This document shows, piece by piece, positions 23,629-39,611 of a DNA stretch of 64,000 nucleotides. Source of the DNA: Solwaraspora sp. WMMD406. GTDB lineage: Bacteria > Actinomycetota > Actinomycetes > Mycobacteriales > Micromonosporaceae. The position numbers were made by a program, and so were the translations under genes. The notes under the pieces were generated by a model that made no database searches, was not told the DNA's origin, and was given only the letters and a program-made list of their open reading frames with translations. Positions within the stretch are counted from its first letter, which is position 1. Each line of letters begins with the position of its first letter. The stretch lies in NCBI RefSeq assembly GCF_029626025.1, contig NZ_JARUBF010000001.1:5798001-5862000 (forward strand), written 5' to 3'.

Positions 23629-24120
23629 ATGACTTCCGCCGCCGCCGAAGGCCCCGTCCGCCTCGCACCGGGCGATAACGCCCCGGAGTTCACCCTGCCG
23701 ACCGACAGTGGTGACCAGCTGTCCCTCAAGGAGCTACGCGGACGCAACGTCGTGCTGTACGCGTACCCGGCGGCGATGACGCCGGGCTGCACCAAGCAAG
23801 CATGTGATTTCCGCGACTCGCTCGCCTCGCTGCGGGCCGCCGGCTACGAGGTCGTCGGCATCTCGCCGGACAAGCCAGCCAAGCTCGCCACGTTCCGGGA
23901 ACGCGACAGCATCACCTTCCCGCTGGTCTCGGACCCGGACAAGAGCGTGCTCACCGCCTACGGGGCGTACGGCGAGAAGCAGCTGTACGGCAAGACGGTC
24001 ACCGGGGTGATCCGGTCGACGTTCGTGATCGACGGCGACGGGCGCATCGCCAAAGCGCTCTACAACGTCAAGGCGACCGGGCACGTCGCCAAGCTCCGCC
24101 GCGACCTCGGTCTCGACTGA
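23629..24120 (+). CDS. bcp: Peroxiredoxin, Bcp/PrxQ type
   Basis: A 163-aa thiol peroxidase of the AhpC/TSA family. The peroxidatic Cys lies in TPGCTKQACDFRD, and the second Cys five residues later is the resolving Cys typical of Bcp. The family then shows VVGISPDKPAKLATF. The ATG at 23629 was chosen because it follows a TAGGCT -10 by seven bases; the longer open frame upstream is an overlap with cbiM on the other strand. It shares the intergenic region, and maybe the Nur-like box, with the metal transporter. Confidence 0.94.
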   Translation: MTSAAAEGPVRLAPGDNAPEFTLPTDSGDQLSLKELRGRNVVLYAYPAAMTPGCTKQACDFRDSLASLRAAGYEVVGISPDKPAKLATFRERDSITFPLVSDPDKSVLTAYGAYGEKQLYGKTVTGVIRSTFVIDGDGRIAKALYNVKATGHVAKLRRDLGLD

Positions 24121-24189
24121 CCGGCTCCGCCGACCGGTCAGATCCGGCCGCTCGACTCCTCGATGGACGACAATGTCGTACCCGCTCGC

Positions 24190-24201: not shown

Positions 24202-24765
24202 ATGGGGAGACAGAAATACACGCGGGAACAGCTGGCTGCCGCCGCCGAACAGTGCCGCAGCGTCACCGATGTGCTGCGCCATCTGGGCATCCGGGTCAGC
24301 GGTGGCTCACATGCACACATCAGTCGCCGCCTGAAGTTCTACGCCATTAACACCTCCCACTTCACTGGGAGCGCCCACAATCGGGGCAAGCGCGGATATT
24401 ATCGGTTGACTCCGTCGATGCTACTGATCAAACTACCCAAAGGGTCGCGGCGGACGCCGGGATTCCGGCTGAAGCGAGCGCTGATATCGCTGGGCGTACC
24501 GGAGCGATGCGCTATCTGCGGAACTGGCACCATCTGGCAGAACGCACCACTGACCTTGCACGTCGATCACATCGACGGCAACTTCCTGGACAACAGGGCG
24601 ACCAACCTGCGGCTACTCTGCCCCAACTGCCACAGCCAAACGGAGACCTATGCAGGCTCTCGCCGCGCCACGACAATAAGTGAGCCGCCGACTCGGTTCG
24701 CAGCGGCCGAGCCGGTCGCCGATCCGCCCCGGCTTCAGCTACCCTATGTCCGGCGAGTAAGATAG
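24202..24765 (+). CDS. HNH endonuclease with N-terminal helical domain
   Basis: A 187-aa protein. Residues 1-50 are a helical, HTH-like part (REQLAAAAEQCRSVTDVLRHLGI) as in small actinobacterial and phage HNH proteins. The nuclease domain holds CAICGTG and CPNC zinc pairs around LHVDHIDGNFLDNRATNLRLL, giving the HNH residues. GC content is lower than around it, and at least four Leu codons are CTA, far above local use. The stop is 11 bases before a tRNA whose anticodon UAG reads CUA, so nuclease and tRNA look like one transferred unit. Confidence 0.85.
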   Translation: MGRQKYTREQLAAAAEQCRSVTDVLRHLGIRVSGGSHAHISRRLKFYAINTSHFTGSAHNRGKRGYYRLTPSMLLIKLPKGSRRTPGFRLKRALISLGVPERCAICGTGTIWQNAPLTLHVDHIDGNFLDNRATNLRLLCPNCHSQTETYAGSRRATTISEPPTRFAAAEPVADPPRLQLPYVRRVR

Positions 24766-24776
24766 AAGAAGCACTT

Positions 24777-24850
24777 GGGGCCGTAGCCCAATTGGCAGAG
24801 GCGTACGGTTTAGGTCCGTATTAGTGCGGGTTCGAGTCCCGCCGGCCCTA
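24777..24850 (+). tRNA. tRNA with anticodon UAG (Leu, CUA codon) but short variable arm
   Basis: A 74-nt cloverleaf. The acceptor GGGGCCG pairs with CGGCCCT (G1.U72), discriminator A73, D loop with GG, anticodon stem TACGG/CCGTA with loop TTTAGGT (anticodon TAG), five-base variable loop TTAGT, and T stem GCGGG/CCCGC. CCA is not encoded, unlike the Lys and His tRNAs here. Bacterial tRNA-Leu should have a long variable arm (class II); this one is class I. The anticodon assigns Leu, but charging identity is uncertain. It is not a stop suppressor, which would need CUA. Confidence 0.85.
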
Positions 24851-24894: not shown

Positions 24895-25497
24895 ATGAGT
24901 TCCCCACTTTCCGTACAACCGGGCTTCGTGCTGGATCCGCCGCTCGACGACGACCTGCGCGAGCGGATCGTCCGGGTCTGGGCGGACGCCACGAACGCCG
25001 GTGGCGCGGTCGGGTTCGTCGCTCCGGTGACCGCCACGGACGTACGACCGACCGCCGAGGCCGCGTTCGCCGGCGTCGCCGCCGGCGTCGATCGGCTACT
25101 CGTCGGCTACGACTCCGCTGGGCTGGCCTCGTTCGTCTTCATCACCAGTAACCGATTCGACCTCAAGGAACACTGGCGGGTCCTCAAACGGGTGGTCGTC
25201 GCGCCGGACCGGCAGGGGCGCGGCTACGGCCTGGCGCTGATGGCCGAGGCCGAACGAGTCGGCCGGTCACTCGGCCTGGCAGCCCTGCAGGTCACCATCC
25301 GGGACGGGCACGGCCTGCCCGCGTTCTATCAGCGGTGCGGCTACCGCGAAGTGGGCCGGCTCCCGGGTGCGCTGCGCGTCGCCGACGGCGACGACCGCGA
25401 CGAGATCATCATGTGGCGTGACCTGACCGACCTAACCCCACCACCGGCGGTCAGCCGCAGGCCGGCGGCGGATCGGCCGGGGCGGCAGCGGGCGTGA
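24895..25497 (+). CDS. GNAT-family N-acetyltransferase
   Basis: A 200-aa protein with the acetyl-CoA site VVVAPDRQGRGYGLALMAEAE (motif A, about 100-120) and the C-terminal FYQRCGYREVGR motif B. It probably acetylates a small molecule or antibiotic; the substrate cannot be read. The first 45 residues form an N-terminal extension. The last 15 codons overlap the end of the converging expansin-like gene by 47 bases and give a basic, Pro-rich tail that may be accidental. Confidence 0.85.
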   Translation: MSSPLSVQPGFVLDPPLDDDLRERIVRVWADATNAGGAVGFVAPVTATDVRPTAEAAFAGVAAGVDRLLVGYDSAGLASFVFITSNRFDLKEHWRVLKRVVVAPDRQGRGYGLALMAEAERVGRSLGLAALQVTIRDGHGLPAFYQRCGYREVGRLPGALRVADGDDRDEIIMWRDLTDLTPPPAVSRRPAADRPGRQRA

Positions 25498-38267: not shown

Positions 38268-39611
38268 TCAGCGATCGACGCTGCGTTGCGAAATGGCATC
38301 GAGCAGCGCCGGATGCAGGACGTGGTTCCAGCCGGCCCCACCCATGGCCAGCCGCCAGGTCCGTAGCCACATCTCAATCAGATAACTCTGCGCGACCAGC
38401 TCACGGCAGGGCGCGTCGAGGCCGAGCCGCGACCCGTACCTCAGCAGCTGGTCGTCCACGGCCGCGACCGCCGTCGGTACCGGCGCGCCGCGCAGGATCA
38501 GCGCCCGCTGGAAGGCGTCGTGGGCGAGGTCGAACCCGACCGGCACGTCCGGACCACTGTGCTCCCAGTCCCAGGCGACCAACCGATCGGCGTGCCGGCC
38601 CAGATTCCACGGCACCCAGTCACCGTGCCAGACACCGTACTCGGCCAGGACCGGACCGTACCGTCGCGCCAGATGGTCGACGGCCGCCACCAGCCGCCGA
38701 CCCGCCGCCGGGTCACCAGCCGGTCCCGACTCCGCCGCCGCCGACTCTGCCAGCGACCGCAGCCGGTCGAGAAACGGCGAACCGGTCAACGCCCGCCGCT
38801 CGCCCGGGGCACCGGACCGACGGGCGACCGCCAACAGCGCGGCGCAGTCCGGCGCCGCGGTGGGGCTCAGGCCCCGGATCTTCGGTGGCAACGGCTCCAC
38901 CACGGTGACCGCCTGCCCCGCCCAGTCCCCCGCCACCAGCACCCGGGGAACCAACGGGTGATCGCCACCCGGTGCCGGCACGGTCGACAGCACCGCCGCC
39001 TCGGCGCGCACCAGCCGCCGGGTCGCGTCGTTCCAGCCGATCTTGGCGTAGCCACGCGGCCGGCCGGCGGCGTCGAACAACTGGACCGTCGGTTTGTGAT
39101 TCGGGTCCGGCGGCCGGACCCCGATCGCCGCGTACCACCGCTGCCCGCCGAGCCGGTCGGCGAGATGGTCCACCAGCATCAGCTCGGCCACGTCCACCCC
39201 ACGCGCCGGCGCCGACACGGTCAGCACCGACGGTCGGGTCAGCCGCAACGCCCCGGTACGCGCCATCGCGCCCAGCACCGCACGGGGCAGCCGGACCCGG
39301 GCCGGCCGCAGCGCGTTGTAGGCCCAGACCGAGGCCGCGGTCATCCGACGTGGACCCACCGGCAGCAGGAACCGGGCGCGCCGTACCGACGGAACCACCA
39401 CGTAGCGGGCCAGCGTCCGAGACGTCGTCGACCCGTCGGCGACCGACGGTTCGGCCGCCACCGACCGCGCGCCGTCGGCCAGCCGTACGCCATCGGCCAG
39501 CCGTACGCCATCGGCCGGGGCGACCGTCAGGCGCAGCCGCTCATCCGGAAATACCGCCCGGGTCACCCAGCCCAGGCCGTCGTCGCCCGACCGGGGATCG
39601 AATCCGCTCAC
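38268..39611 (-). CDS. APH-fold kinase-like protein in polysaccharide cluster
   Basis: 447 aa. The C-terminal half has kinase-like motifs YGVWHGDWVPWNLGRHADRLVAWDWEHSG, that is the catalytic HGD..N and the metal-binding WD. The N-terminal 150 residues are of unknown fold and hold DGVRLA repeats (18-bp DNA repeat at 39475-39516). It is coupled by four bases to the sulfotransferase gene upstream. It may phosphorylate a sugar or glycan, or be a pseudokinase; I cannot decide. Confidence 0.7.
   Translation of the reverse strand: MSGFDPRSGDDGLGWVTRAVFPDERLRLTVAPADGVRLADGVRLADGARSVAAEPSVADGSTTSRTLARYVVVPSVRRARFLLPVGPRRMTAASVWAYNALRPARVRLPRAVLGAMARTGALRLTRPSVLTVSAPARGVDVAELMLVDHLADRLGGQRWYAAIGVRPPDPNHKPTVQLFDAAGRPRGYAKIGWNDATRRLVRAEAAVLSTVPAPGGDHPLVPRVLVAGDWAGQAVTVVEPLPPKIRGLSPTAAPDCAALLAVARRSGAPGERRALTGSPFLDRLRSLAESAAAESGPAGDPAAGRRLVAAVDHLARRYGPVLAEYGVWHGDWVPWNLGRHADRLVAWDWEHSGPDVPVGFDLAHDAFQRALILRGAPVPTAVAAVDDQLLRYGSRLGLDAPCRELVAQSYLIEMWLRTWRLAMGGAGWNHVLHPALLDAISQRSVDR

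Follow-up and report, generated by a model that had tools for sequence, protein, structure and literature searches.

Homing endonucleases parasitise conserved genes via introns, inteins and intergenic neighbours. In the synthetic gene drives known as Cleave-and-Rescue, which are engineered and Cas9-based, a nuclease directed against an essential gene is combined with a recoded rescue copy of that gene. Among natural systems involving tRNA genes, SegB of the T-even phages is a free-standing GIY-YIG homing endonuclease encoded in the tRNA region, which cuts tRNA-containing DNA (extracts of PMC13096335 and PMC2988022). A second precedent is provided by collaborative or intron-less homing and by the endonucleases of group I introns in tRNA anticodons, where the extracts of a 2014 review describe the nuclease as tied to the intron insertion site (PMC3984707). 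The same extracts record that the phage introns observed at that time were all in protein genes (PMC3984707). Lastly, of all genes in mycobacterial tRNA arrays, HNH genes are described as the most widespread (extract of PMC5966550), and one mycobacterial tRNA cluster contains a short-variable-loop tRNALeu(TAG) that supplements the normal gene (extract of PMC6582537). A chromosomal HNH unit that replaces tRNA-Leu(UAG) was not described in the open-access literature searched, a scope outside which most subscription journals and bioRxiv fall.

We analysed a stretch of 64,000 nt from Solwaraspora sp. WMMD406 (hereafter the window), in which an initial annotation had drawn attention to a lower-GC HNH nuclease gene ending 11 bases before a class I tRNA with a UAG anticodon, a five-base variable loop and no encoded CCA. 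The features of the locus are as follows; genomes and loci elsewhere are cited by our own G and L labels.

23641..24120, + strand: bcp-like thiol peroxidase gene (query stretch), the 5′ neighbour of the HNH gene; the name bcp is our assignment, made by resemblance
24202..24765, + strand: HNH endonuclease gene, short form, 187 aa (Pfam HNH_3/HNH, PHROG 10822)
24208..24381, + strand: putative DNA-binding N-terminal region of the HNH protein (aa 3-60), from invariant residues and model helices
24508..24639, + strand: HNH catalytic core C103..C106..D122-H123..N135..C140..C143-H144, from alignment and Pfam HNH
24758..24763, + strand: putative -10 element TAAGAT of the tRNA promoter, overlapping the HNH stop codon
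24777..24850, + strand: class I tRNA-Leu, anticodon UAG, CCA not encoded, from ARAGORN, Rfam, fold and Leu identity positions
24895..25497, + strand: GNAT acetyltransferase gene, the 3′ neighbour (Pfam Acetyltransf_1, E 1.5e-9)

The initial description of the pair held up in each of these respects. The HNH ORF has a GC content of 0.622 against 0.701 for the window and ends with a TAG at 24763-24765, after which 11 bases precede the tRNA; the longest ATG ORF covering the gene begins at 24163. The tRNA is 74 nt long, was scored by ARAGORN, as had been proposed, as an uninterrupted tRNA-Leu(tag), and matches Rfam RF00005 with 57.4 bits (E 9e-10). Its cloverleaf closes, with a folding energy that is unremarkable in comparison with shuffles (z -1.63). 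The variable loop is of 5 nt (TTAGT), the long variable arm of canonical class II tRNA-Leu being absent, and the bases 3′ of the tRNA are CGC, CCA being unencoded as in many tRNA genes of the same genome. No match to the group I intron model RF00028 was found in the window at gathering score, around the HNH ORF or elsewhere, and no class II tRNA remnant was seen in the window by eye. The tRNA stands singly rather than in an array, the next Rfam-supported tRNA of the window being more than 11 kb away. ARAGORN also reported a tRNA-Thr and an unknown tRNA on the minus strand (38641-38722 and 39412-39508), which lack Rfam support and are probably false positives.

Cleave-and-Rescue is engineered, whereas the cassette in the window would be a natural, bacterial and putative counterpart. 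With SegB it shares a free-standing nuclease gene adjoining tRNAs, which in the phage system promotes inheritance or amplification of the tRNA region. However, SegB is a GIY-YIG enzyme of a phage tRNA cluster, whilst the cassette combines an HNH enzyme with a single chromosomal tRNA, and the available extracts on SegB describe neither replacement of a host's only codon reader nor a class switch (PMC13096335, PMC2988022). As with group I intron endonucleases, homologues of the window HNH protein are found inside or beside intron-like inserts of tRNA-Leu(UAA); the chromosomal cassette differs in having no intron and in bringing with it an entire tRNA of another structure. HNH genes also adjoin tRNAs in mycobacterial and phage arrays (extracts of PMC5966550 and PMC6582537), but the mycobacterial tRNALeu(TAG) is there an extra copy, whereas that of the window stands alone and no other UAG tRNA was found. 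The related genomes suggest that the pair is a selfish unit replacing the resident tRNA gene by its own version. Judged from these sequence comparisons, the nuclease is probably an intron-less homing endonuclease directed at tRNA-Leu genes, with a complete replacement tRNA as its cargo.

The tie between this HNH family and tRNA genes extends far beyond the window. An HNH match was obtained in 35 of 200 genomes of the order, and a tRNA was present in all 30 loci fetched (21 tRNA-Leu(UAG), 3 tRNA-Leu(UAA) and 6 tRNA-Thr(UGU), the HNH proteins of the last group being more distant). In one other genus of the order, all six tRNA-Thr(UGU) loci (L130-L135) have a shorter, more distant HNH gene a few hundred nt after the tRNA. 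One genome per species from 84,980 species was then scanned with a six-sequence HNH alignment, yielding at least 396 chromosomal relatives, the best 80 of which were fetched. The search for the same pair in other genomes, suggested in the initial annotation, gave tRNA-Leu(UAG) within 700 nt of the ORF in 80/80 of these best relatives. Measured from the BLAST match, a tRNA lay within 700 nt in 79, within 400 nt in 66, within 150 nt in 60 and within 60 nt in 37. When intervals were displaced by 1.9 kb, a tRNA fell within 150 nt in only 1 of 154, as against 60 of the 80 chromosomal matches. These intervals served as the control because scanning with a phage HNH protein of another kind gave 1 relative only. 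The genera represented among the 80 include Micromonospora, Actinoplanes, Streptosporangium, Nonomuraea, Kitasatospora, Streptomyces, Rhodococcus and Nocardioides, with others. By length, 41 of the 80 best relatives (of at least 396) have a class I and 39 a class II tRNA-Leu(UAG). An exclusive link of the HNH gene to class I tRNAs is ruled out by these 39.

Viral relatives show a similar neighbourhood. Among the best 80 of at least 564, a tRNA was found within 700 nt in 71; it was a tRNA-Leu in 45, the remainder comprising Val, Met, Trp, Tyr, Pro, Gln, Thr and others. Within 150 nt, a tRNA accompanied 55 of these 80 matches as against 47 of 142 displaced intervals, a high control value owing to the clustering of phage tRNAs. 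In annotated phages the HNH gene abuts or overlaps a tRNA in three of the five relatives examined (Rhodococcus phage Dorin, Vibrio phage D69 and Citrobacter phage Maleficent), and the other two have no adjacent tRNA. The viral loci also lend something to a different explanation, namely that the HNH gene is a passenger and that the tRNA-Leu(UAG) locus is swapped by homologous recombination or by phages carrying class I tRNAs. Thirteen of the 45 tRNA-Leu beside viral HNH genes (again in the best 80 of at least 564) are 75-78 nt long, and so of class I; moreover, the extracts of one paper report both the extra class I tRNALeu(TAG) of the mycobacterial cluster and HNH genes in such clusters (PMC6582537). 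We nevertheless consider a passenger role unlikely, as the same kind of neighbour is kept in all 80 of the best chromosomal relatives, and the pair in the window is directly flanked by bcp and the GNAT gene.

From the tRNA side the link looks looser. Full-length relatives of the window tRNA were found in 26 of 61 genomes, its own included, all with the anticodon TAG, and a clear HNH match was present at 5 of these 26 class I tRNA-Leu(UAG) loci. Hits of the tRNA pattern in G025, G026, G029 and G033 proved not to be tRNAs.

The tRNA occupies a fixed locus. The bcp protein is encoded in 61/61 Micromonospora genomes and in 196/200 genomes of the order, and tRNA-Leu(UAG) lies behind bcp on the same strand in 71/72 Micromonospora (in the exception, G232, the contig ends 13 nt on) and in 7/7 genomes of the window's own genus. 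In other genera it was found behind bcp in 21 loci and was absent from the fetched stretch in 16. Four states exist at this site. Amongst the 71 Micromonospora loci, the tRNA is of class II without HNH in 33, of class II with an HNH-sized spacer (at least 350 nt, broken HNH genes counted) in 21, of class I with such a spacer in 10 and of class I without it in 7. All seven loci of the window's own genus are class I, four with and three without HNH. Alleles with and without the HNH gene are therefore found at one fixed site, HNH-sized spacers being present in 31/71 Micromonospora and HNH in 4/7 of the own genus. On a bcp DNA tree, that is, a tree of the linked gene, built from 79 loci (71 Micromonospora, 7 own genus and 1 outgroup), tRNA class requires at least 17 changes, 14 of them being forced by well-supported branches. 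Shuffled class labels need a mean of 20.8 changes, with a number as low as the observed one in 14 or 17 of 500 shuffles, meaning that class is only slightly clustered on the tree. The tRNA-Leu(UAG) gene itself exists in 46 distinct sequences among the 71 Micromonospora genomes (45 with ARAGORN ends); tRNA-Leu(GAG) is 100% identical to the copy in the window's genome in 55 of 61 Micromonospora and 98-99% identical in the other 6.

Many of the Micromonospora class II tRNA-Leu(UAG), e.g. L163 and L165, have U13 and C22 (GGCGTAA...GCCGCG), where G13 and A22 are usual. Inspection by eye indicates that U13A14A15 of such tRNAs is an in-frame TAA which terminates the long HNH ORF, as if the class II tRNA and the long HNH reading frame were mutually adapted.

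Closely related loci that differ in class reveal the extent of what is exchanged. Of the ten Micromonospora class I loci with an HNH-sized spacer, nine encode a short HNH protein with a common tail, the tenth (G239) being a hybrid. Among the 21 class II loci with such a spacer, the ORF could be read in 19, none of which has the tail, and the spacer exceeds 780 nt in 18 of the 21. Between G255 (class I) and G259 (class II), bcp is 98.9% identical, after which identity in successive 80-nt segments runs 95, 94, 86, 65, 69 and 79%; past the tRNA it is 61% in 60 nt and then 94% over 400 nt downstream. A clean start to the tract, with identity falling within HNH and rising again beyond the tRNA, was seen in 5 of 10 class-different pairs (G255/G259, G256/G254, G117/G249, G225/G271 and G225/G278), whilst G082/G246 was nearly clean, G117/G131, G273/G009 and G240/G236 were not, and the tenth, G280/G124, has no HNH for comparison. 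In several sister pairs the differences are mainly in the HNH core, the tRNA and a short flank. That the HNH core lies inside the exchange tracts together with the tRNA is a further argument against its being a passenger.

Remnants of the HNH gene persist where the gene itself has gone. Of the 24 class I loci in Micromonospora and the own genus, 14 have an HNH-sized spacer, and the other 10 all retain HNH 3′ sequence, with a match reached by 0/60 shuffles each; thus an HNH gene or a remnant is present in 24/24. None of the 34 class II HNH-less loci matched the Micromonospora class I tails beyond shuffles. Class II HNH tails were matched by 28 of these 34, the outgroup included, and so a shared promoter alone can suffice for such a match. 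The initial annotation had expected its reading to fail if relatives carried the tRNA without the HNH gene, used a normal class II tRNA-Leu(UAG) as sole reader and did not express the class I tRNA. The tRNA does occur without the HNH gene in 3/7 own-genus genomes, but no class II tRNA-Leu(UAG) was found in them with a sequence pattern that misses some D-loop variants, and HNH remnants are retained in their spacers. Elsewhere, too, the HNH gene is interrupted or deleted, e.g. in G172, G195, G242, G261 and G275. At the same place in the seven own-genus spacers there is a -10-like TAAGAT, TAACCT or TAAACT, and the one at 24758-24763 would be a promoter element. The HNH 3′ end likely carries the tRNA promoter, which would explain its survival.

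Outside these two genera, none of 18 HNH-less class I loci held an HNH remnant that beat all 40 shuffles when searched with 54 class I tails. Either old loss or another origin may account for this. These loci speak against any general pairing of class I with HNH and, along with the frequent loss of the gene, count in favour of a passenger.

Broken tRNA genes point to the site at which the nuclease may act. In M. globispora S2901 (G239/L280, NZ_QGGF01000508.1) a broken long HNH gene is followed by a class II tRNA-Leu reduced to its initial 28-32 nt, a fragment that ends in the anticodon arm, is closest to UAG genes and is 96% identical over 28 nt to one of them; then come a short-HNH remnant and a complete class I tRNA-Leu(UAG). 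This case is one draft contig, and its 5′ half was found by a masked BLAST scan that also gave many short matches resembling chance matches to promoters or T-arms. A comparable arrangement exists in viral locus L435, where the two halves of a class II tRNA-Leu interrupted in the anticodon loop are both preserved (acceptor 7/7 and anticodon stem 5/5 pairs) and enclose an HNH gene of opposite strand together with a complete class I tRNA-Leu(UAA). At viral locus L422 the 5′ half of a class II tRNA-Leu is followed by an HNH gene, whose end is overlapped by a complete class I tRNA-Leu(UAA). The anticodons of the broken tRNA-Leu genes are not fully readable. By strict acceptor pairing, tRNAs split around HNH numbered 4 in 80 viral loci (best 80 of at least 564; L365 included) and 0 in 80 chromosome loci (best 80 of at least 396).

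In viral loci L376, L408, L410 and L434 tRNA-Leu(UAA) is interrupted at this anticodon-loop site by an insert that contains the HNH gene. Viral locus L402 has an Rfam-verified group I intron in tRNA-Leu(UAA) at 2163-2446, without HNH inside it, the HNH gene following the tRNA. The 3′ ends of the L376, L410 and L434 inserts resemble the L402 intron. Rfam found no group I intron in L408, L410 or L434 even at E 0.05, perhaps because an ORF sits inside. We describe the inserts of these three loci as intron-like on the strength of their 3′-end likeness to L402 and of a sequence motif. The HNH proteins of L422 and L410 are 37-38% identical to that of the window over the first 150-160 residues (L410: 38%, 161 positions). 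The family thus appears to occupy the tRNA-Leu anticodon-loop site in three arrangements: within an intron-like insert, next to an intron, or accompanied by a replacement tRNA.

The HNH protein of the window matches Pfam HNH_3 and HNH just above the cut-offs (HNH at aa 103-146) and PHROG 10822, an HNH endonuclease family, with E 3.6e-45. The gene is open in G002, G003 and G006, at 81-83% identity to that of the window. Residues C103, C106, D122, H123, N135, C140, C143 and H144 are invariant in an alignment (A2) of 27 chosen sequences from which rows with stops were excluded. In the N-terminal region, L11, R26, G34, G35, H53 and F54 are invariant in the 27 chosen sequences and the model has helices at 8-16, 21-27 and 34-46; we infer that aa 3-60 bind DNA. 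In the one long HNH protein tested (L116), the extra part gave sub-threshold helix-turn-helix matches. With the predicted structure (mean pLDDT 81.6, pTM 0.48), every fold match stayed above E 0.001; HNH DNases came out best, at E above 0.02 and thus without significance, I-HmuI was at rank 47, and a PDB sequence search gave weak matches only. Six own-genus pairs compared along the entire gene gave dN/dS ratios of 0.14-0.27, and the 8 of 9 Micromonospora pairs yielding a value gave 0.01-0.28 for the first 450 nt. By these ratios the HNH genes are under purifying selection, which would not be expected of a passenger.

Another explanation would be a role in defence or as a toxin-antitoxin pair, with the nuclease hitting phage DNA or acting upon tRNA loss and the tRNA serving as a decoy or sensor. 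Gene and tRNA are closely interlocked, bases 8-10 of the tRNA forming the HNH stop codon in 16/41 class I chromosome loci (from the best 80 of at least 396); with PADLOC, ZorE HNH domains are matched at E-values as low as 5.4e-9, and the predicted model has weak fold matches to the EcoKMcrA and CBASS Cap5 nucleases. However, PADLOC ranks a model for homing endonucleases first (E 1.3e-12), some genomes keep the tRNA although their HNH gene is broken, and the homologues sit in the tRNA anticodon loop, as homing elements do. We therefore think a defence or toxin-antitoxin role very unlikely and retain the homing reading.

The 7.16 Mb genome has 47 tRNA places found with the Rfam tRNA model, all of which were read, and the window tRNA alone has a UAG anticodon. 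Its class II tRNA-Leu have the anticodons CAG (two), UAA and GAG, and no class II tRNA-Leu(UAG) was found among the 47. As the only tRNA with this anticodon among them, the window tRNA must serve all CUA codons, and most likely it decodes CUA for the whole cell. Its D-loop, AAUUGGCAGA, resembles those of class II leucine tRNAs, and it carries A73, A14, A15-U48, G18G19 and A20a. In 48 distinct class I tRNAs, A73 is present in 46, A14A15 in 44, GGYA in 48 and U48 in 38. The available extracts of one review list A73, A15-U48, G18G19 and A20a as the leucine identity essentials in E. coli, report that E. coli tRNA-Leu variants minus the anticodon arm and the long variable arm are still active, and add that the long arm is also missing from human mitochondrial tRNA-Leu(UUR) (PMC9976931). 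Charging of the window tRNA with leucine is the plain expectation from these positions, and another identity, which the initial annotation had entertained, finds no support in them.

The sole tRNA-Leu(CAA) found in the same genome (L076, G000:C1:3419439-3419512) is also of class I. Matches to it were obtained in 29/41 genomes, and no HNH match was found beside it in the 30 loci examined. In addition, a tRNA array at G048:C1:8928975 (L462) includes class I tRNA-Leu with CAA, GAG and CAG anticodons among other tRNAs.

The initial annotation had proposed a mobile unit carrying its own decoder, on the grounds of at least four CTA codons in the HNH gene. The codons are there: CTA makes up 4 of the 19 Leu codons of the HNH ORF as against 10/1196 in 26 proxy genes, which were chosen by ORF length and codon-position GC and not by annotation. 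It could be argued from this excess that the tRNA mainly decodes the nuclease gene's CUA codons, or that CUA supply regulates the HNH gene. Yet in 33 HNH genes of Micromonospora and the own genus CTA is just 23/740 Leu codons (3.1%), compared with 11/1224 (0.9%) in 80 bcp genes, a mild excess that could be explained by lower GC. Moreover, HNH-less genomes retain the tRNA. We regard this explanation as scarcely credible, a private decoder being rejected on the tRNA's status as sole reader together with the codon counts; the nuclease gene's own CUA codons matter little. What survives of the original proposal is the mobile unit that carries a tRNA.

The homing reading may be put as a sequence of steps. 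The nuclease would meet a resident class II tRNA-Leu gene and nick or cut it in the anticodon arm. Repair would then copy the cassette over the cut gene, with bcp and the downstream gene as homology, so that inheritance of the cassette would be biased. Being structurally different, the class I tRNA of the cassette could both replace the lost tRNA and escape targeting, and the cell would subsequently rely upon it for CUA codons, charged by the ordinary LeuRS. Later, the nuclease gene would decay, its remaining 3′ end doubling as the tRNA promoter. The 21 class II Micromonospora loci with an HNH-sized spacer imply that a swap of class is not the sole way of sparing the unit's own tRNA. A bolder form of the proposal, towards which we are drawn but lean slightly the other way, is that the unit may be a natural bacterial cleave-and-rescue element, in which the nuclease destroys the resident and probably indispensable tRNA-Leu(UAG), supplies an uncuttable tRNA with the same anticodon and leaves the host dependent. 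Such a process would explain why tRNA-Leu(UAG) needs at least 17 class changes on the bcp tree of Micromonospora and the own genus, tRNA-Leu(GAG) hardly varying.

If this is true, the unit carries a substitute for the gene it destroys, and that gene is one for whose sense codon no other reader was found. The tRNA class or the HNH neighbours at such loci should not be dismissed as annotation errors. The locus offers a natural case of a leucine tRNA alternating between class I and class II and, with four allele states in one genus, a test bed for the capture of core translation genes by selfish DNA.
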